DNA of 40,280 bases from Elusimicrobia bacterium GWB2_63_22 (GCA_001799735.1 MGUA01000012.1:1-40280), one strand, 5' to 3'. Counted from the first letter of the stretch, positions 21,712-29,845 are shown. Notes: generated from the letters alone by a model not told the origin. Program-made: numbers and translations.

Positions 21712-22253
21712 ACTTCGGAAAGAAGCCTTCGCCCATCCCCGGGTGTTTCGAAATTCTACCGGTAGTTCGGGAAGACGAGCGCGGAAGGTTCGTTAAGACT
21801 TTTCACGAGCCGGATTTTAAAGAGCTTGGCTTGGAAACCCGGTTTTTGGAGGAGTTCTATTCCGTTTCCCGGAAAGGCGTCCTGAGGGGATTGCATTTTC
21901 AGCGCCCACCGCACGACCATGTGAAACTGGTCTATTGCGCCGCCGGAAAGGTCTTCGATGCGGTCTTGGACCTGCGTAGAGATTCGCCTACATACGGAAA
22001 ACACGCCGTTTTTGAGGTGAGCGCAGAAAAAGCCAATTCGATATATATCCCCCGCGGATTGGCTCACGGTTTTTTTACGCTAAGCGAAAACGCTGCGGTT
22101 GTGTACAAGGTCTCTACGGTCTATTCCCAGGAGCATGATAGCGGCATCCTGTGGAATTCCGCCGGTATCCACTGGCCGGATAACTCCCCGACCATATCCG
22201 GGCGGGATGCGGGCTTTGTCCGTTTTGGGGATTTTACGACCTGTTTCTTGTGA
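21708..22253 (+). CDS. RmlC-like cupin epimerase, possibly for the CDP-3,6-dideoxyhexulose
   Basis: A 181-residue protein of the dTDP-4-dehydrorhamnose 3,5-epimerase family. GVLRGLHFQ holds His63, IPRGLAHGFF and VVYKVSTVYS, with the Tyr133 position, are conserved. It directly follows and overlaps rfbH, and a complete rmlC exists at 9430. It is therefore a candidate C5 epimerase of the CDP sugar, as in the ascarylose pathway; this is inferred from context. Codon use changes here: isoleucine shifts from mostly ATA to ATC, marking the start of the variable segment. Confidence 0.8.
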   Translation: MNFGKKPSPIPGCFEILPVVREDERGRFVKTFHEPDFKELGLETRFLEEFYSVSRKGVLRGLHFQRPPHDHVKLVYCAAGKVFDAVLDLRRDSPTYGKHAVFEVSAEKANSIYIPRGLAHGFFTLSENAAVVYKVSTVYSQEHDSGILWNSAGIHWPDNSPTISGRDAGFVRFGDFTTCFL

Positions 22254-22317
22254 TCCTGTGGGACTTTTGTTCGTTTAGCTGTAGACAGAAGCTCTTCGCG
22301 GCAATAGAGGACTAGTC

Positions 22318-22959
22318 ATGGTTGAGATCATCGCTCATCGCGGTTATTGGATAAAAGAAAGTGAGAAGAATACTCTGAAGGCTTTCAAGAGGGCTTTCTC
22401 TTTTAATTTCGGAATTGAGACCGATATCCGGGACTATAACGGAGAACTGGTGGTTTCACATGACATCCCCGGCGGGCACAGCGTAAAACTTGAAACTTTG
22501 TTCGCCTTATACAGGAGCTGCTCCCAGAAAGGCGTTTTAGCGCTGAATATTAAAGCCGACGGCCTGCAGGGTAAATTGCGCGGGCTGCTTGAAAAATTCA
22601 AGATCTGCAACTATTTTGTGTTTGATATGTCCTTTCCCGAGCAGTTATTGTACTCTAAGCTCCGCTTTAACGTTTTTACGCGCCAGAGCGAGCACGAGAA
22701 GGTCCCGTTGCTGTATGCCCCGGCGAACGGGGTCTGGCTGGATGAATTCAGCGACCGTTGGATAAAGGGCGATGTGATTAAGAGACATATCCGCAAGAAC
22801 AAAGCGGTGTGCCTTGTGTCCCCGGAGCTGCATGGTCGCGGCTTTTTCGGGATGTGGAAAGACTATCGTGATTGGAGCGGGCAGAACAGTGCCGTGAAAA
22901 TGTTCCTCTGTACGGATTTCCCTGAAAAGGCGGGAGGTTATTTTAATGAAAAAAATTAA
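22318..22959 (+). CDS. GDPD/PI-PLC-like phosphodiesterase
   Basis: A 213-residue TIM-barrel protein similar to glycerophosphodiester phosphodiesterases. AHRGYW has His7, IETDIRD has Glu34 and Asp36, and VVSHD has His48, so the metal and catalytic residues are present. LALNIKADG corresponds to the next conserved strand. There is no signal peptide, so it acts in the cytoplasm. It starts a five-gene group with overlapping ends. Possible roles are hydrolysis of a phosphodiester precursor or recycling of a glycerol-type substituent; neither is shown by sequence. GAGGA precedes the ATG. Confidence 0.8.
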   Translation: MVEIIAHRGYWIKESEKNTLKAFKRAFSFNFGIETDIRDYNGELVVSHDIPGGHSVKLETLFALYRSCSQKGVLALNIKADGLQGKLRGLLEKFKICNYFVFDMSFPEQLLYSKLRFNVFTRQSEHEKVPLLYAPANGVWLDEFSDRWIKGDVIKRHIRKNKAVCLVSPELHGRGFFGMWKDYRDWSGQNSAVKMFLCTDFPEKAGGYFNEKN

Positions 22960-23584
22960 GGCGATAATCTTTGATATGGACGGCGTCCTTATTGACGCGA
23001 AGGATTGGCACTATGAGGCTTTAAATAAGGCTCTCGGCCTTTTCGGGATGCAGATCAACCGGTACGACCATCTGGTCACCTACGACGGCTATCCCACGCA
23101 GAAGAAGCTGGACCTGTTGAGCATGGAATGCGGGCTGCCGCTGGAACTGCAGCCGTTCATCAACGAATTAAAACAACTGTTCACGATGGAGATCGTGGAG
23201 ATGCGCTGCAAACCCAAGTTTCAGCATGAATACGCGCTGGCTAAACTAAAACAGGAAGGCTATTCCCTTGCGGTATGTTCCAATTCAATTCGCGGAACTA
23301 TAGAGCTTATGCTTAGGAAAGCCAACTTGTTGAAATATTTTGATTTCTACTTGTCGAATCAGGACGTGGTTAAATCCAAACCTGACCCTGAAATATATGT
23401 TAAGGCCATAAAAAAACTCGGGCTACGTCCCGAGGAGTGCCTTATCATAGAGGATAACGAGAAGGGGATCAAGGCCGCCCTCGCCAGCAAGGCGGGCCTT
23501 CTTGAGGTGGATACCGTGGAGGACGTTAATTACCAGAATATCAAATCCCGTATTCATAAACTGGAAGGAGCGAAAAATGCTTAA
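22946..23584 (+). CDS. HAD-superfamily hydrolase, beta-phosphoglucomutase-like
   Basis: A 212-residue HAD protein. Motif I IIFDMDGVLID has Asp10 and Asp12, motif II is the serine of VCSNS, motif III the lysine of KSKPDPEIY, and motif IV IIEDNEKGIKAA. A helical cap between motifs I and II is consistent with a phosphatase or sugar-phosphate mutase. It overlaps the gene before it by 14 bases and the next by 8. It probably processes the sugar or polyol phosphate used by the two nucleotidyltransferases. Confidence 0.85.
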   Translation: MKKIKAIIFDMDGVLIDAKDWHYEALNKALGLFGMQINRYDHLVTYDGYPTQKKLDLLSMECGLPLELQPFINELKQLFTMEIVEMRCKPKFQHEYALAKLKQEGYSLAVCSNSIRGTIELMLRKANLLKYFDFYLSNQDVVKSKPDPEIYVKAIKKLGLRPEECLIIEDNEKGIKAALASKAGLLEVDTVEDVNYQNIKSRIHKLEGAKNA

Positions 23585-24320
23585 TATCCTTATGCCCATG
23601 GCCGTAAAGTCGGCCTTTTTTGAAGGTAAAGATTATCCGTTCCCGGCCCCGCTTATAGAGGTGGACGGAAAGTCTATCGTGGAATTAGCCCTGCAAAATT
23701 ATAAGGCGATCAAGGGGCCTAAAAGGTTCATTTTCGTGGTTACCAAGGCGGATTGTGTCAAATATCATATCGATAGCGTCTTGGAGCTTCTGACCGAAGG
23801 GGAATGCGACATTGTTAAGCTGTCTGGGGAAACCAAGGGGGCGGCGTGCAGCTGTCTTATGGCCGTTAAGTTCATAAATAACGATGAGCCCTTGATAATC
23901 GCGAATGGAGACCAGATCATAGACGAGCGGTTGGGTGATATTGTTAAACAGTTGGACAAAAATTACGACGCCGGAGTGCTGTCCTTTGAAACCGTGCACC
24001 CGAGATGGTCTTACGTGCGGCTGGACGAAAAAGGCCTGATAACAGAAGCGGCGGAAAAAAGGCCCTTAAGCAATAACGCTATCGCCGGATTCTATTATTT
24101 TAAAAAGGGGCGCGATTTTGTCCGCGCCGCAATGAGTTCCATAAAAAAAGACTCCAATGTTAACGGGATTTACTATATAGCCCCTACGCTCAATGAGCTG
24201 GTGCTGGAGGGGAAGCGCTTGGGGGTATATAAGATAGATAAGACCAAGTATCACACGCTCTATTCCCCGCAAAAAATACAGGAGTATGAAAAAACTGTCG
24301 CGAGAAGGGTAGCGCAATGA
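23577..24320 (+). CDS. Divergent NTP-transferase-fold protein (A of a tandem pair)
   Basis: A 247-residue protein with the nucleotidyltransferase fold. The first loop reads MPMAVKSAFFEGKDYPFPAP, so the usual GxGxRF and PKP signature is missing. The later metal-binding block IIANGDQIID, the AAEKRPLSNNAIAGFYYF region and the C-terminal helix pattern are kept, and are shared with the gene that follows. It may use a different nucleotide, be catalytically weak, or serve as partner of B. The ATG at 23577 is set by AAGGAG at 23565-23570. Confidence 0.75.
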   Translation: MLNILMPMAVKSAFFEGKDYPFPAPLIEVDGKSIVELALQNYKAIKGPKRFIFVVTKADCVKYHIDSVLELLTEGECDIVKLSGETKGAACSCLMAVKFINNDEPLIIANGDQIIDERLGDIVKQLDKNYDAGVLSFETVHPRWSYVRLDEKGLITEAAEKRPLSNNAIAGFYYFKKGRDFVRAAMSSIKKDSNVNGIYYIAPTLNELVLEGKRLGVYKIDKTKYHTLYSPQKIQEYEKTVARRVAQ

Positions 24321-25057
24321 TCAATATCGTCATCCCGATGGCCGGGGAAGGCTCCCGGTTTGTAAAGGCGGGCTATGCCAAACCCAAGCCGTTCATCGAT
24401 GTCTGTGGCAAACCCATGATCGTCCGGGTAATGGAAAACTTGAGATATAAGAACGCTAGGTTTATCCTGCTGGGCAGGAAAAGCCACCTTGAGCGTGAGA
24501 AGAAGGTTGTAAAAGCCATTTCTAGGCGTTTCAACGCGGTCTTTCTCCCGATTGACAGGCTGACCGAGGGGACAGCGTGTACCGTGCTGTATGCGAGACG
24601 TTATATAAACAATAACGCTCCTCTTCTGATCGCCAATTCCGACCAGATCGTGGACGTGGACATCAGCGCGTTCATAGGGAAATGCCTGAAGGGAGGTTCG
24701 GACGGGGAGATACTGACCTTCATTGATCCTCACAAAGATAAAAAATGGTCGTTCGCCAAGGTCAACAGGGCCGGCCTGGTAACGGAGGTAAAGGAAAAAG
24801 ATCCCATCTCCAAATACGCCACCGTCGGGATCTATCTGTACCGCCGCGGGGCTGACTTCATTAACGCCGCGATAGATATGATCGCCGCCAATGACAGGGT
24901 GAATAACGAGTTCTATACTTGCCCCACTTATAATTATGCAATCAGGGAAAAGCTTAAGATCGGTGTTTTTAATATCGGGTTTTCTCAAATGCACGGAATC
25001 GGCACTCCGGAGGACCTGGCCCGATATACGGCGGTTCTGGGCGGGGAGAAAAAATGA
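24317..25057 (+). CDS. NTP-transferase (sugar nucleotidyltransferase-like, B of the pair)
   Basis: A 246-residue protein with a complete signature: MAGEGSRFVKAGYAKPKPFI at the N-terminus, IANSDQIVDVD for metal binding, and KEKDPISKYATVGIYLY in the sugar side. It should couple a nucleoside triphosphate to a phosphorylated sugar or small molecule; which one is not apparent. It overlaps A and the cupin gene by 4 bases each. The two NTP-transferases align over their length and look like an old tandem duplication. Confidence 0.82.
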   Translation: MINIVIPMAGEGSRFVKAGYAKPKPFIDVCGKPMIVRVMENLRYKNARFILLGRKSHLEREKKVVKAISRRFNAVFLPIDRLTEGTACTVLYARRYINNNAPLLIANSDQIVDVDISAFIGKCLKGGSDGEILTFIDPHKDKKWSFAKVNRAGLVTEVKEKDPISKYATVGIYLYRRGADFINAAIDMIAANDRVNNEFYTCPTYNYAIREKLKIGVFNIGFSQMHGIGTPEDLARYTAVLGGEKK

Positions 25058-25374
25058 AAACAGGCAAGCTGGCAGAAATGAAGGGCGGATGGTTTGTCGG
25101 GGATTTTGACCCTGTCTGTCTTAAGGCCAAGGAGGCCGAGGCCGCCTGCAAGTACTACAAGGCCGGAGACAAAGAAGGGAAGCATGTCCACCGTATTGCC
25201 ACGGAAGTCACGGTGATAGCCAGTGGCAAGGTTAAAATGAACGGGCATTTGTTAGGCGCCGGGGATATCATCGTCCTTTCCCCGGGGGAAGCCTCTGATT
25301 TTCAGGCCATAGAGGATACGATTACCATGGTCGTCAAGTTCCCAAGCGTGATGGGGGATAAGTACCCTGCTTAG
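25054..25374 (+). CDS. Small cupin protein
   Basis: A 106-residue single-domain cupin. GKHVHRIATEVTVIASGKV contains the two histidines and the glutamate of cupin motif 1, and GDIIVLSPGEASDF corresponds to motif 2. A similar short cupin often accompanies nucleotidyltransferase genes in capsule loci. It could be an isomerase or a binding protein for the product of the five-gene module. It overlaps the preceding gene (ATGA). Confidence 0.8.
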   Translation: MKTGKLAEMKGGWFVGDFDPVCLKAKEAEAACKYYKAGDKEGKHVHRIATEVTVIASGKVKMNGHLLGAGDIIVLSPGEASDFQAIEDTITMVVKFPSVMGDKYPA

Positions 25375-25429
25375 GTGTCCGGAGCTCCAGATTGAACCGC
25401 ATGAAACGCCCCACGCATAAGAGCATCCC

Positions 25430-26935
25430 ATGAGTACCAAGAAAAAGGTTTTCTATGGTATTTCTGTGGACTATGTCGGCACAATTCTGGTCGCAATAGC
25501 GGGGTTTGTTGTTGTGCCGTTTTATTTTAAATATGTCTCCGTGGCGGAGTATGGCGTCTGGCTTGCGATCCAAGGGGTAATTGGCATGTTGTCTGTTGCG
25601 GAATTTGGCGGGGATGTATACCTGATTACCAAAATATCTGACGATTCTGTTTTTAATGACGCCTCTGCGGTTACTGCCCAAATTTCCACAATGATATTGC
25701 TTAAGTCTGTTTTGTCTGTGTTATTCATTGTTTCCGGGGTGGTTGTGTTTTTTAGTTTGGATAGGATTATATCTTCAGGCATTGATGTTTCGATAGTTAA
25801 CAGGATTTTCGTTCTGGCTTTGGCTGTGTTGGTTATAGGGACTTTTTCCAGTACTCTTAGCACAATTCTTAGTGCCAGGCATCATTATTCGCTGGTTAAT
25901 TCTATTACCTCTTTTTTTGCTATTTTTGCTGCCGCACTTCCCTTGCTTTTTCTCGCGCAGGGGTTAGGGGTCTTATCCTTTGCATTGGCGTTGTTTATCT
26001 CTGTGGTTGTGCAGGCGCTTCTCCTGCTGGGAAGTGTGATGCTGAAATACCCAACCTTGAGGGTCAAGTTATCTTCGGTTTCTATCGGTTCCATAAAGGA
26101 CACGTATAATTATTCTAAAAAGTTTTACTTTCTGCGTTTGGCCGCAATGTTCCGGACAAACTATATGGTCCTGGCAATTTCCCATTTAACCTCCGCCTCT
26201 TATGTCACTATTTACACGATTACAAACCGTATCCCTTCGGTTGTCCCCATGTTCTTTTCCAAGATAGGTACCGGGCTGTTCCCGACATTCGCCAAATTCT
26301 ATGCTGCGGGAGATATGGCTAAGATCAAGAGCATTTACTTGCGCCTAGCCAAGATCGTCTGGCGGCTTGTGCTGTTTTTCTTTATCCTGGTTGTGGGGCT
26401 AAACGGGGATTTTGTGAGATTGTGGGTGGGCACCGATAAATTTGGCGGGTTCTGGATGATGGTTTTTCTTGCAGTGAACATGCTTGTGTTGTCTGTTAAT
26501 AACCCTTTGGGTACTATCGTGTATTCTACCGGCAAGTATGAAAAATGGCCGCAATGGGCGGTTGTGGAGATATTTTTATCGGTGGTCGCCTCTTATGTTT
26601 GTGCAAAGATATGGGGTGTGGACGGAATAGTGTTCGCATTCATGCTGGCCTCCATGGTTACGGCTGTATATCTCTTTCAGATGGTTAATCGTGTTCTTGG
26701 GATAACAGTTCGGGAATTCTTCCGGAACACTCTCTCTTACGCATTGCTCCCTAACGTGGTGACCATCTGCCTTATGTCCCTGTTGTTAGTTTTTGGGATA
26801 CATACCTGGAGGTCAATGATTTTTGCTGTAGTGGCCTTGACCGTATCTCATGTTCTGTTCTATGAGGGTGTAAAAGTATTTTTATCAAAAGAAGTCGGAT
26901 TCAAAAAAAAGATTCTGGCGGCTCTTCAAATATGA
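25430..26935 (+). CDS. wzx: Wzx-type oligosaccharide flippase
   Basis: A 501-residue integral membrane protein of the MATE/PST (MVF) superfamily with a dozen or more hydrophobic segments. The N-terminal YVGTILVAIAGFVVVPFYF and the sequence AEYGVWLAIQGV, followed by AEFG, are typical of Wzx proteins. It would flip the undecaprenyl-linked repeat unit across the inner membrane. It is the first gene after the five-gene module, with a 55-base gap that shows no clear promoter. Its base composition is AT-richer than the core genes. Confidence 0.92.
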   Translation: MSTKKKVFYGISVDYVGTILVAIAGFVVVPFYFKYVSVAEYGVWLAIQGVIGMLSVAEFGGDVYLITKISDDSVFNDASAVTAQISTMILLKSVLSVLFIVSGVVVFFSLDRIISSGIDVSIVNRIFVLALAVLVIGTFSSTLSTILSARHHYSLVNSITSFFAIFAAALPLLFLAQGLGVLSFALALFISVVVQALLLLGSVMLKYPTLRVKLSSVSIGSIKDTYNYSKKFYFLRLAAMFRTNYMVLAISHLTSASYVTIYTITNRIPSVVPMFFSKIGTGLFPTFAKFYAAGDMAKIKSIYLRLAKIVWRLVLFFFILVVGLNGDFVRLWVGTDKFGGFWMMVFLAVNMLVLSVNNPLGTIVYSTGKYEKWPQWAVVEIFLSVVASYVCAKIWGVDGIVFAFMLASMVTAVYLFQMVNRVLGITVREFFRNTLSYALLPNVVTICLMSLLLVFGIHTWRSMIFAVVALTVSHVLFYEGVKVFLSKEVGFKKKILAALQI

Positions 26936-26947
26936 ACTGTCCCGGCA

Positions 26948-27781
26948 ATGTTGGGGATTAAAACTATGCAGGCCTCTGCGAAAGTAAGTTTTACGGATAT
27001 CATTAACTGCTTGCGATTTTTTGTGAAATCGCTGCCGCGGCGTATTGCATTCCCTGGGCGGAAGTGTGTCCTGGGACGTACAGCCTGCTTGGGCAATGAT
27101 GTGATCTCCATCCTTGATCCATCTGCCTGTTTTTTTAATATGCAGAAGGGCCGCGTGGACTACCTGTCTGATGTCGTTTCGGATCCCAAACTTTCCGCAA
27201 GCCCCTGGGACGTCCTCCAGTTTTTGCAACGAAAAGACATTTTCTCCCTGATAATCCAGCAGTCCAGTCCACTTTGGTTTAAGTCCACCCCGCCTGCGGC
27301 TTTGTTTATGGATTCCTACTCTGAATTGACGGACCAGCTGTTTGTTCATCGCCGCGATAATTGGCGGTTCTTGTGCAATTATTCAGACTTGGACCATTCT
27401 CGGGAATTTAAGGAACAGTTCTTGCCCGCAGGCCTTCTGCCCTGTGATGACTTGGGTATGCAGTATCAGAGATTTTTCTTGTTTGTCCGGAAAATGTGGG
27501 GGGATATCCCCATAGTATTTATGCACTTCCCCGTTAAGCTGGACAAGCGTGAAAAATTTAAGTTGCGCTACCAGGCTATATATAAAGCTATTTCTGAATT
27601 GCAGGGGCGGTTTCAGCCGTTTTACTCTTTAGCGATAGATGAAACCGTAGTGGACTGGCCGGAAGTTAAGGTTCCAGGGTTGGAAGAATTCCCATACCAT
27701 TTTAACCTTAAAACGTACCAAGCTTTCGCGGAGAAGGTTCGGGCGACAGGCGCGTTAAATCCTGATGGTGGCATGCGGTAG
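26948..27781 (+). CDS. Unknown protein, possibly SGNH/DUF6270-like
   Basis: A 277-residue soluble protein that I do not recognise with confidence. KCVLGRTACLGNDVIS near residue 38, FMDSYSELTDQLF in the middle, PIVFMHFPVKLDKREKFKLR, and a terminal EEFPYHF then YQAFAEKV recall the order of blocks in DUF6270/SGNH-like proteins of capsule loci. The nucleophile motif of such hydrolases is not conserved (GRTACLGND). A start at 26966 is equally possible; GGGG lies before it. The location between Wzx and a WavE-like gene suggests a role in modifying or assembling the glycan. Confidence 0.6.
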   Translation: MLGIKTMQASAKVSFTDIINCLRFFVKSLPRRIAFPGRKCVLGRTACLGNDVISILDPSACFFNMQKGRVDYLSDVVSDPKLSASPWDVLQFLQRKDIFSLIIQQSSPLWFKSTPPAALFMDSYSELTDQLFVHRRDNWRFLCNYSDLDHSREFKEQFLPAGLLPCDDLGMQYQRFFLFVRKMWGDIPIVFMHFPVKLDKREKFKLRYQAIYKAISELQGRFQPFYSLAIDETVVDWPEVKVPGLEEFPYHFNLKTYQAFAEKVRATGALNPDGGMR

Positions 27782-27807
27782 ATACTGTTTGCGGAAAAAT
27801 ATTAATA

Positions 27808-28875
27808 ATGAAACCATATTTTAAGAAAGTCGCTGGTGCCATAGAGGTGTTTCTGGGAGCTCTTTTATCCTGGGGCGCCGTTGTTGCGTTCCGGGTTGTA
27901 GGGGATAAGTATCGCCGGAGATTGGCCTGGATTTTCTTGGGCGCTGGTGATAGCGAATCATTTATCACATTTCATGTCCGCCCACAGGAGGGAGCACATG
28001 TCAGCACAGTTAATGACCAGTTGAGTGTTTCCCCTAAAATTGCGGTGGTTATACAGGGGGGGCTGCTTTCCGACAACCACTTTACTATCGAAACACTTAA
28101 CGCGTATAAAAATATTTTTCGCGGTCACCCGCTAATCTTGTCGACTTGGGACGGTGAGTCTGAAGCTGTTCTCAAAGAGGCGGAGCGGATCGGGGTGCAT
28201 TGCTGTGTAAATCCTAAGCCTAAATATTTCGGGGTTAGCAACATAAACCTTCAGATCGTTTCCAGCCGGGCGGGGGTAAGGGCGGCCCATAAACTCGGGT
28301 GCGAATATGTCCTCAAAACCAGGACTGACCAGAGAATATACGCTCCCGATACGGGGGAATACTTGTACAATCTCTGCGAAACTTTCCCGGTCGCCGGCAA
28401 CTATCCAAAGCAAAAAAAGAGGATTGTCGGAGTTAGTTTGAATACGTTTAAGTACCGGATGTATGGCCTGTCTGATATGCTTGTCTATGGCCATATCGAG
28501 GATATGCTTTTGTATTGGGATATAGATACCGATACGCGTGTCTTTACCCGCGAGGAAACGGAGAAATCCCGCACCTTGGCTTCTTTTGCCAAATGGAGAG
28601 TGTGCGAGGTTTATCTGGCTACGGAATTCCTCAAGAAAATAGGCCGGGAGTTGCAGTGGACGCTGCAGGATAGCTGGCGGGCTTATGCCGAGAATTTCTG
28701 CGTTGTCGACAGAGAGCAGTTCGATCTCTTCTGGCCCAAGTATGGGCGGGAGGAGTATAGATGGCGGTCCTACGGACAGAATTATAAAACCCGGGAAATG
28801 ACCTTCCGCGATTGGTTCAATATATATCGCGGCCTCAATAACAGGGAAATAGATGAGCGCCTTCTGGACCAGTGA
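27808..28875 (+). CDS. WavE-family polysaccharide synthesis protein
   Basis: A 355-residue protein with the WavE pattern: VVIQGGLLSDNHFTIET, then ILSTWDGE, then YVLKTRTDQRIY in the central part. WavE proteins of Vibrio are involved in LPS core synthesis and are believed to be glycosyltransferases. The first 35 residues contain a hydrophobic stretch (FLGALLSWGAVVAFRVV) that may attach it to the membrane. It overlaps or abuts the methyltransferase gene. Confidence 0.82.
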   Translation: MKPYFKKVAGAIEVFLGALLSWGAVVAFRVVGDKYRRRLAWIFLGAGDSESFITFHVRPQEGAHVSTVNDQLSVSPKIAVVIQGGLLSDNHFTIETLNAYKNIFRGHPLILSTWDGESEAVLKEAERIGVHCCVNPKPKYFGVSNINLQIVSSRAGVRAAHKLGCEYVLKTRTDQRIYAPDTGEYLYNLCETFPVAGNYPKQKKRIVGVSLNTFKYRMYGLSDMLVYGHIEDMLLYWDIDTDTRVFTREETEKSRTLASFAKWRVCEVYLATEFLKKIGRELQWTLQDSWRAYAENFCVVDREQFDLFWPKYGREEYRWRSYGQNYKTREMTFRDWFNIYRGLNNREIDERLLDQ

Positions 28876-28888
28876 CAGGATTATACTT

Positions 28889-29845
28889 ATGGCTAAAAAT
28901 ATCGCAATCGTGGATTCTTTGCGCGGCGTGGCCGCGGATGTTTATGGCAGGCTTTTCCTTTTGCCAAAGCTGAAAGAGGCCGAGTCAGAAAGGCGTTTTT
29001 TTGAAGTCGCCCCGGATTATAAGCGGTTGACCGCCGAATTCTACGCGGAAACCGCCGTGCCAGGCGCGAACCCGGCCTACCAATGGGATTCCTGGCGTAA
29101 GAATATCAGGGATGCCTTCGATAAGGGGGTGCCGGTGAATTTCCTGTCGATGTCTGTTCTTGCCAAGACCATGGTCTTCGGGCGAAAGCGCGGAAAGAAA
29201 CATGCGGATATGCGGATAGAAAAGGTCAGGGAGGTATTCGGGGACGAGATAGCCAAACGCCTTCTCCTCGAGGATTATCTGGGGGCTCCTGCGGTTACGG
29301 ACTCCGAGTGGATGACTTCCGCCAACAGAGCTCACCTCGCCTCTCATTTGGCTCATTACAGTGATAAGGCTAAAACTCATTTGTGGGACGCCGGGACCGT
29401 GCTGGAATGGGGCGCAGGTTACGGGTGTATGGCGCGCTTACTGCGCCGCATGAACCCAGGGCTTACGTATATCATAGTGGACCTCCCGGAGCTCCTGGCC
29501 CTGCAGTATGTTTATCTGTGCGCCCTTGAGGGGGCTTCGGCGCTGAATGTCGCTACCCAGCCTCAGGGAATACTAAAGGGGAAAATTAATTTTATCCCGT
29601 ATGAGTCCTTGGTTGCCGGAAAGGTTGTCCCCAGTTGCGACGCGTTTATCTCTACCTGGGCTGTAACGGAAAGCCCGATAGAGGCGCAGAAAAGCGTTAT
29701 TGACGCGCGGTTTTTCTCCGCGAAAAAAGTGCTTTTGGCGTATTTTAAAAAAGACGGGAATATGTTCCAGAGCCATGGCGATACTCTTGGCCTTTCGGAG
29801 GACGCCATCCCCGCACAGCCGGGGAATGCCTATGCCTGCAGGTGA
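28889..29845 (+). CDS. Putative sugar O-methyltransferase
   Basis: A 318-residue protein of the family called putative sugar O-methyltransferase. VLEWGAGYGCMARLL is the S-adenosylmethionine-binding loop, and YIIVDLPELLALQYVYL and ISTWAVTESPIEAQ are the next conserved strands. It would methylate a hydroxyl of a sugar in the repeat unit. I chose the ATG at 28889 because AGGA lies in front of it and the start at 28853 lies inside the WavE-like gene; the longer form cannot be excluded. Confidence 0.82.
   Translation: MAKNIAIVDSLRGVAADVYGRLFLLPKLKEAESERRFFEVAPDYKRLTAEFYAETAVPGANPAYQWDSWRKNIRDAFDKGVPVNFLSMSVLAKTMVFGRKRGKKHADMRIEKVREVFGDEIAKRLLLEDYLGAPAVTDSEWMTSANRAHLASHLAHYSDKAKTHLWDAGTVLEWGAGYGCMARLLRRMNPGLTYIIVDLPELLALQYVYLCALEGASALNVATQPQGILKGKINFIPYESLVAGKVVPSCDAFISTWAVTESPIEAQKSVIDARFFSAKKVLLAYFKKDGNMFQSHGDTLGLSEDAIPAQPGNAYACR

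Follow-up and report, generated by a model that had tools for sequence, protein, structure and literature searches.

In ADP- and GDP-heptose biosynthesis an isomerase, a PfkB-type kinase, a HAD phosphatase and a nucleotidyltransferase (NT) act in turn, so that a sugar-1-phosphate is made and then activated. Dedicated capsule decoration with NT or HAD enzymes is also described in Campylobacter jejuni, in the phosphoramidate, serinol and ribose modules (PMC12096443). For jumbo phages and cyanophages, the review PMC7824862 describes sugar clusters containing cupin isomerases, PfkB kinases, HAD phosphatases, nucleotidyltransferases and glycosyltransferases, and place the nucleotidyltransferases in the HIGH superfamily.

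The set of genes reported here would share the logic of the heptose pathway and is found in Elusimicrobia bacterium GWB2_63_22 (GCA_001799735.1 MGUA01000012.1:1-40280). The whole 40,280-nt stretch is termed the window, and the set occupies positions 22318-25374 counted from its first letter. The first gene encodes a GDPD-like TIM-barrel phosphodiesterase of 213 aa with a predicted atypical metal site (22318..22959), assigned by fold and conserved motifs. It is followed by a 212 aa HAD hydrolase of the beta-phosphoglucomutase/YqaB subfamily (22946..23584), two NTP_transferase-fold paralogues, NT1 (23577..24320) and NT2 (24317..25057), and a 106 aa single-domain cupin (25054..25374). An earlier note, made from the sequence alone, took the five genes to be coupled by overlapping starts, and this holds: all are on the + strand, successive starts overlap the preceding gene by 14, 8, 4 and 4 bp, and a purine-rich stretch lies 5′ of each of the five starts.

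The module is separated by 64 bp from the upstream gene and by 55 bp from the downstream one. Upstream are O-antigen/capsule precursor genes, i.e. glucose-1-phosphate cytidylyltransferase, CDP-glucose 4,6-dehydratase, an RfbH-type enzyme and an RmlC-like epimerase, and downstream are a flippase gene and a WavE-family gene. At 22 kb the GC content drops from ~0.56 to 0.48, and it remains low up to ~29 kb; thus the module probably sits in a horizontally acquired block or island. Over window positions 22000-29000 the GC content is 0.45-0.49, compared with 0.54-0.63 across the preceding 8 kb. The product of positions 26948-27781 is a protein of 277 aa that matches no Pfam family. A homologue of it (6e-28) lies directly after NT2 in viral contig L083 (5710-6390), and for this reason the 277-aa protein may be part of the wider set of the module.

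Comparison with plasmid records and with 295 Elusimicrobiota genomes shows that the five genes are a conserved module. GDPD-like and HAD genes are found side by side with an NT in plasmids of Azospirillum, Rhizobium, Ruegeria, Acetobacter, Pseudomonas and Scandinavium, and GDPD-like, HAD and NT genes are also grouped in other Elusimicrobiota. In the plasmid neighbourhoods the three are tightly ordered, often together with a cupin and a WavE gene. The GDPD is present in 27 plasmid records, and these include each of the 24 with a close HAD; from their neighbourhoods, the other three appear to carry a cousin module. Cultivable carriers of the module include Azospirillum lipoferum 4B and Rhizobium rhizoryzae. 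Among the 295 genomes, HAD is found in 6, cupin in 8 and both in 6 (hypergeometric 3e-11); module-type GDPD is found in 5, in each case together with HAD (3e-10). Similar genes had at first been thought to occur singly, but neighbourhood comparison shows the set recurring together in several phyla and in phages.

The composition of the set varies. UBA1202 displays a minimal GDPD-NT2-HAD-cupin-WavE arrangement between household genes, away from a capsule locus. NT1 is missing in L010 and in two other Elusimicrobiota loci (L045, L046), and NT2-type genes are also found without GDPD or HAD. The cupin is missing from Rhizobium, Azospirillum and Tropicibacter loci, where a third NT-like protein is present, thus the cupin is not essential everywhere. 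In these cupin-less alphaproteobacteria the third NT-like protein is still more degenerate and follows an NT1-NT2 fusion (L005 11898-12578, L004 11949-12671, L027 11797-12501, and also L033 and L034).

The cousin module is found in L029 (6013-14984), L030 (5707-16266), L031 (7120-14504), L047, L048 and L049. It consists of a tandem NT-NT fusion, a GT2, a GDPD-like protein and a large membrane protein (GT-C), the latter with a PRK-type kinase domain in L031. Annotated plasmid copies add GtrA, HAD and class II aldolase, and one copy is on an E. coli plasmid. The arrangement resembles a gtr-type glycan modification locus. The GDPD and NT families are common to both modules but the partners differ, and the cousin module was set aside.

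Reduced versions of the module are also present in many marine phages. With the NT2 alignment as query, 520 stretches in viral contigs were found to encode a relative of NT2, and at least 591 encode a relative of a mini-GDPD. The NT-anchored set is made up of 80 loci drawn from the 520, and an 85-locus set adds L036 and four cyanophage loci. Module versions are present in the sequenced cyanophages S-CAM9, B23, Bellamy and SynMITS9220M01. In the two locus sets, whose members were selected for their resemblance to genes of the window and do not represent a random sample, a mini-GDPD of 150 residues is found in 72 of 85 loci and directly adjoins the NT in 38 of the 72, the HAD is fused to the NT in 46 of 80, and a cupin is present in 28 of 80. 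In non-redundant sets, linkage is seen whichever gene serves as anchor. The mini-GDPD model matches 48 of 57 NT-anchored loci and HAD is likewise found in 48; NT is present in 65 of 73 mini-GDPD-anchored loci; and the 61 cupin-anchored loci show NT in 45 and mini-GDPD in 39, NT being absent from about a quarter of them. In viral contig L036, which may be bacterial DNA, the five genes occur together next to genes for dTDP-rhamnose and an ABC exporter. Among the PHROG families to which module proteins match, a function is assigned to just one, a HAD family. Viral contigs L055 (6019-7113) and L065 (5728-6831) encode a further NT-phosphatase fusion, in which a PNKP-like/type-III HAD phosphatase domain forms the C-terminal part.

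The drop in GC at 22 kb, as expected of a probable acquired island, would also fit ordinary co-located capsule genes that were swept together by horizontal transfer and share no pathway. This is highly improbable, as the same families are found together in several phyla and in phages with the order shuffled and with several kinds of fusion, and the reciprocal linkage in viral loci contradicts it.

The HAD protein is matched by the HAD_2 (5.5e-32) and PGMB-YQAB-SF (1.7e-32) profiles, the second match being under that model's curated cut-off. Across 65 relatives its motifs (DxD, Ser, Lys, ED) appear intact, with the consensus FDlDGVl, sNsir, KP.pe and ED. The one pointer to a mutase-like role comes from gene content in phages. 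In Bellamy the NT and an RpiB-type isomerase form one fusion protein, and the neighbouring genes encode a PfkB kinase and a HAD that by sequence reading is KdsC-like; some phage variants of the module are heptose-like in combining RpiB, PfkB, KdsC-like HAD and NT. In the cupin-anchored set, PfkB/RpiB is present in 14 non-redundant loci and a bPGM-type HAD in 33, and no locus has both. The 14 PfkB/RpiB loci contain NT in all cases, and mini-GDPD and a second, KdsC-like HAD in 12 each. As the net effect of kinase and phosphatase is that of a phosphomutase, we infer from this exclusivity that the HAD supplies the 1-phosphate used by the NT. It could also be a plain phosphatase.

The HAD may instead act after transfer, X being moved as a phosphate and then dephosphorylated. 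There is a precedent in the C. jejuni capsule, where Cj1435 and the middle domain of Cj1432 are phosphatases acting after transfer (PMC12096443), and the HAD motifs appear catalytically complete. However, in the 46 viral fusions the partner of the HAD is the NT and not a transferase, and a kinase and second HAD can replace it. Both observations place the HAD before the NT, and action after transfer appears unlikely.

NT1 and NT2 both match NTP_transferase (PF00483) above its cut-off of 21.2 bits, NT1 with 29.3 bits (7.9e-07) and NT2 with 45.6 bits (8.5e-12). NT2 looks catalytically complete. The window sequence has the GxGxR...PKP loop, and the GxGxR nucleotide-binding loop is found in 38 of 38 NT2-type sequences, bacterial and viral. 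NT1 of the window lacks the loop, as do all 15 NT1-like sequences that were judged (one further fragment was not judged). The remaining half of the site (GA.C, NxDQ, EAAEK..IS, AG.YYF) is retained in NT1. A single polypeptide combines NT1 and NT2 in Rhizobium, Azospirillum, Tropicibacter and Sinorhizobium. Lacking the loop and fused to NT2 in rhizobia, NT1 is probably a non-catalytic partner of NT2. Thus of the nucleotidyltransferase pair first proposed, NT2 stands as an active-looking enzyme and NT1 is degenerate. The nearest analogy would be the GDP-mannose pyrophosphorylase alpha/beta complex GMPPA/GMPPB, also a paralogous NTP_transferase pair, in which GMPPA is the non-catalytic partner; chains of 7d72 belong to the closest solved relatives of NT2, and its solved relatives include both a GMPPB and a GMPPA chain. 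NT1 and NT2 differ in having no C-terminal beta-helix domain, in a length of ~250 aa each and in their other partners. In plasmid records the module NTs are labelled 'glycosyltransferase family 2 protein', e.g. L006 10255-11001 and L007 10337-11071, which is likely a systematic misannotation.

The first protein of the set does not reach the PF03009 gathering score in Pfam and is not detected by NCBIfam profiles, though it shows weak sequence matches to solved GDPDs. Two of its relatives do score above the PF03009 cut-off of 23.6 bits, L043 with 39.3 bits and L044 with 30.9 bits. Structure models were made from window, L010 and viral-contig sequences. The AlphaFold2 model of the window protein (pLDDT 83.4) predicts the GDPD TIM-barrel fold, aligning by VIA-align with 2pz0 at Z 20.6 over 196 residues (rmsd 2.6). 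The protein shares with the PF03009 family (GlpQ, UgpQ, T. tengcongensis GDPD 2pz0) this fold as well as HRG, ExD and the second His. In the window these are H7-R8-G9, E34-x-D36 and H48; the catalytic His pair (H7, H48) and the ExD ligands (E34, D36) are invariant across 12 relatives. L012 is an exception at HRG, reading HK, and its N-terminus may be mis-started.

Differences from the PF03009 family are found at the third metal ligand, the Glu of NxExK. This residue is replaced in the window family (N77-x-K79), and L043 and the phage mini-GDPDs have HxK at the same site, whereas L134, a canonical GDPD of the same genome, has NIETK. A new conserved Glu is found in SPEL (E170) of the window protein. 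When set against L134, every NT-linked GDPD retains HRG, ExD and the second His, L012 excepted as above, and a Glu in (S/M)PE is common to them. Genetic linkage to nucleotidyltransferases further separates the module GDPD from the family. Thus the protein, initially described as GDPD-like, is by its model a real TIM barrel, and the description needs correction in that the third metal ligand is replaced. As the source genome has three other PF03009 genes, the window copy is probably specialised. In Elusimicrobiota genome G089 a different, true PF03009 GDPD takes the place of the module GDPD, adjoining HAD, NT1, cupin and NT2; this is an argument that the locus requires an activity of GDPD type.

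The GDPD may supply the building block, as the earlier note implied for the phosphodiesterase. A glycerophosphodiester, e.g. from lipid head-groups, would be cleaved to X-phosphate, the HAD would trim it, NT2 would form CDP-X and a transferase would add X-phosphate or X, giving a decoration similar to phosphocholine or polyol phosphate. The fold with both catalytic His and ExD, the replacement by a true PF03009 GDPD and the fact that NTs of ~240 aa include cytidylyltransferases are consistent with such a supply. However, the GDPD is kept where a kinase and phosphatase (with or without an isomerase) replace the HAD and make the NT substrate otherwise, the canonical third metal ligand is replaced, and the genome has the other PF03009 GDPDs. 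In addition, the WavE protein looks GT-A-like in its model, and is presumably not a transferase of LicD or TagF type. Because GDPD and cupin are common to the HAD and kinase routes, the GDPD is unlikely as the source of the starting phosphate, and the supply of a building block by this enzyme seems doubtful.

The cupin has a conserved HxH...E metal motif, the His of motif 2 is absent, and the Cupin_2 match is weak (0.019, under its cut-off). The WavE-family (PF07507) gene at 27808..28875 on the + strand, which the earlier gene set missed, is often part of the module. The profile match is 48.6 bits (8.7e-13) against a cut-off of 27. WavE adjoins the module in L004, L006, L007, L009, L010 and L028 and accompanies several bacterial copies, the rhizobial ones excepted; in viral loci it is found in 11 to 14 of 80 per set and is absent from most. 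The WavE model shows Z ~11 to GT-A and nucleotidyltransferase folds with a mean pLDDT of 59.6, and the GT-A likeness is limited to the confident N-terminal part, the C-terminal half being too weak. With moderate confidence, WavE is the best candidate for a transferase using the module product, and may be of GT-A type.

The reading preferred here, with a probability of about one half, is that of a module for a glycan precursor. The HAD would convert a phosphate of a sugar or similar compound to X-1-phosphate in a net phosphomutase step. NT2, complexed with non-catalytic NT1, would combine X-1-P with a nucleotide to give NDP-X, and the cupin would isomerise or epimerise X at some stage. The GDPD with its rebuilt metal site would act later, on a pathway intermediate that is either a phosphodiester or NDP-linked, and not as supplier of the starting phosphate, and the WavE transferase would add X to the surface polysaccharide. 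The analysis shows the gene set with its overlaps, conservation, fusions, folds and motifs; we infer these reactions, their order, the nucleotide and the identity of X. In outline the genes resemble a pathway that activates a non-standard substituent with a nucleotide, much as the earlier note proposed, while its implied role for the phosphodiesterase is weakened by the retention of the GDPD in the kinase variants. A further suggestion, put forward tentatively, is that the GDPD acts on an NDP-linked or cyclic-phosphate building block, an undescribed activation chemistry by which bacteria and hundreds of phages may make the same unusual component of surface or virion glycans. As HAD-NT and NT1-NT2 also occur as fusions, single polypeptides would allow the step order to be tested. 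Solving one copy would provide annotation for all bacterial and viral copies, the latter in at least hundreds of viral contigs, and would reveal a new activated sugar or polyol as well as a new reaction for an old phosphodiesterase fold.

A literature search for the gene set, WavE and the cyanophage sets, in which subscription journals were thinly covered, yielded no described pathway with a GDPD-containing set, in agreement with the initial view that no known pathway has these genes. Described pathways were also compared individually and rejected: CDP-ribitol/CDP-glycerol synthesis, as the reductase and TagD are absent from the set; the phosphoramidate pathway, as its kinase and amidohydrolase are absent; and the canonical heptose pathway, as phosphoheptose isomerase and heptose kinase are unmatched by any of the five genes in Pfam/NCBIfam.

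The phosphoramidate (MeOPN) enzymes of C. jejuni (Cj1415-1418) and the serinol and ribose modules resemble the window set as dedicated decoration systems, but their glutamine kinase, amidohydrolase, PLP enzyme and PRPP transferase are absent from the five window genes. We know of no GDPD in these three modules. Relative to heptose biosynthesis, the window set is without isomerase and kinase, its HAD is of bPGM/YqaB type, and it contains a cupin and a GDPD-like enzyme in addition. As for the jumbo-phage and cyanophage clusters, PMC7824862 does not contain the words GDPD or glycerophospho-, and its passages on these clusters make no link to bacterial loci. Systems of this general kind, in which a pathway is dedicated to one activated component of a glycan, are already known; the variant containing a GDPD would be new, and the chemistry of the GDPD step is possibly new as well.
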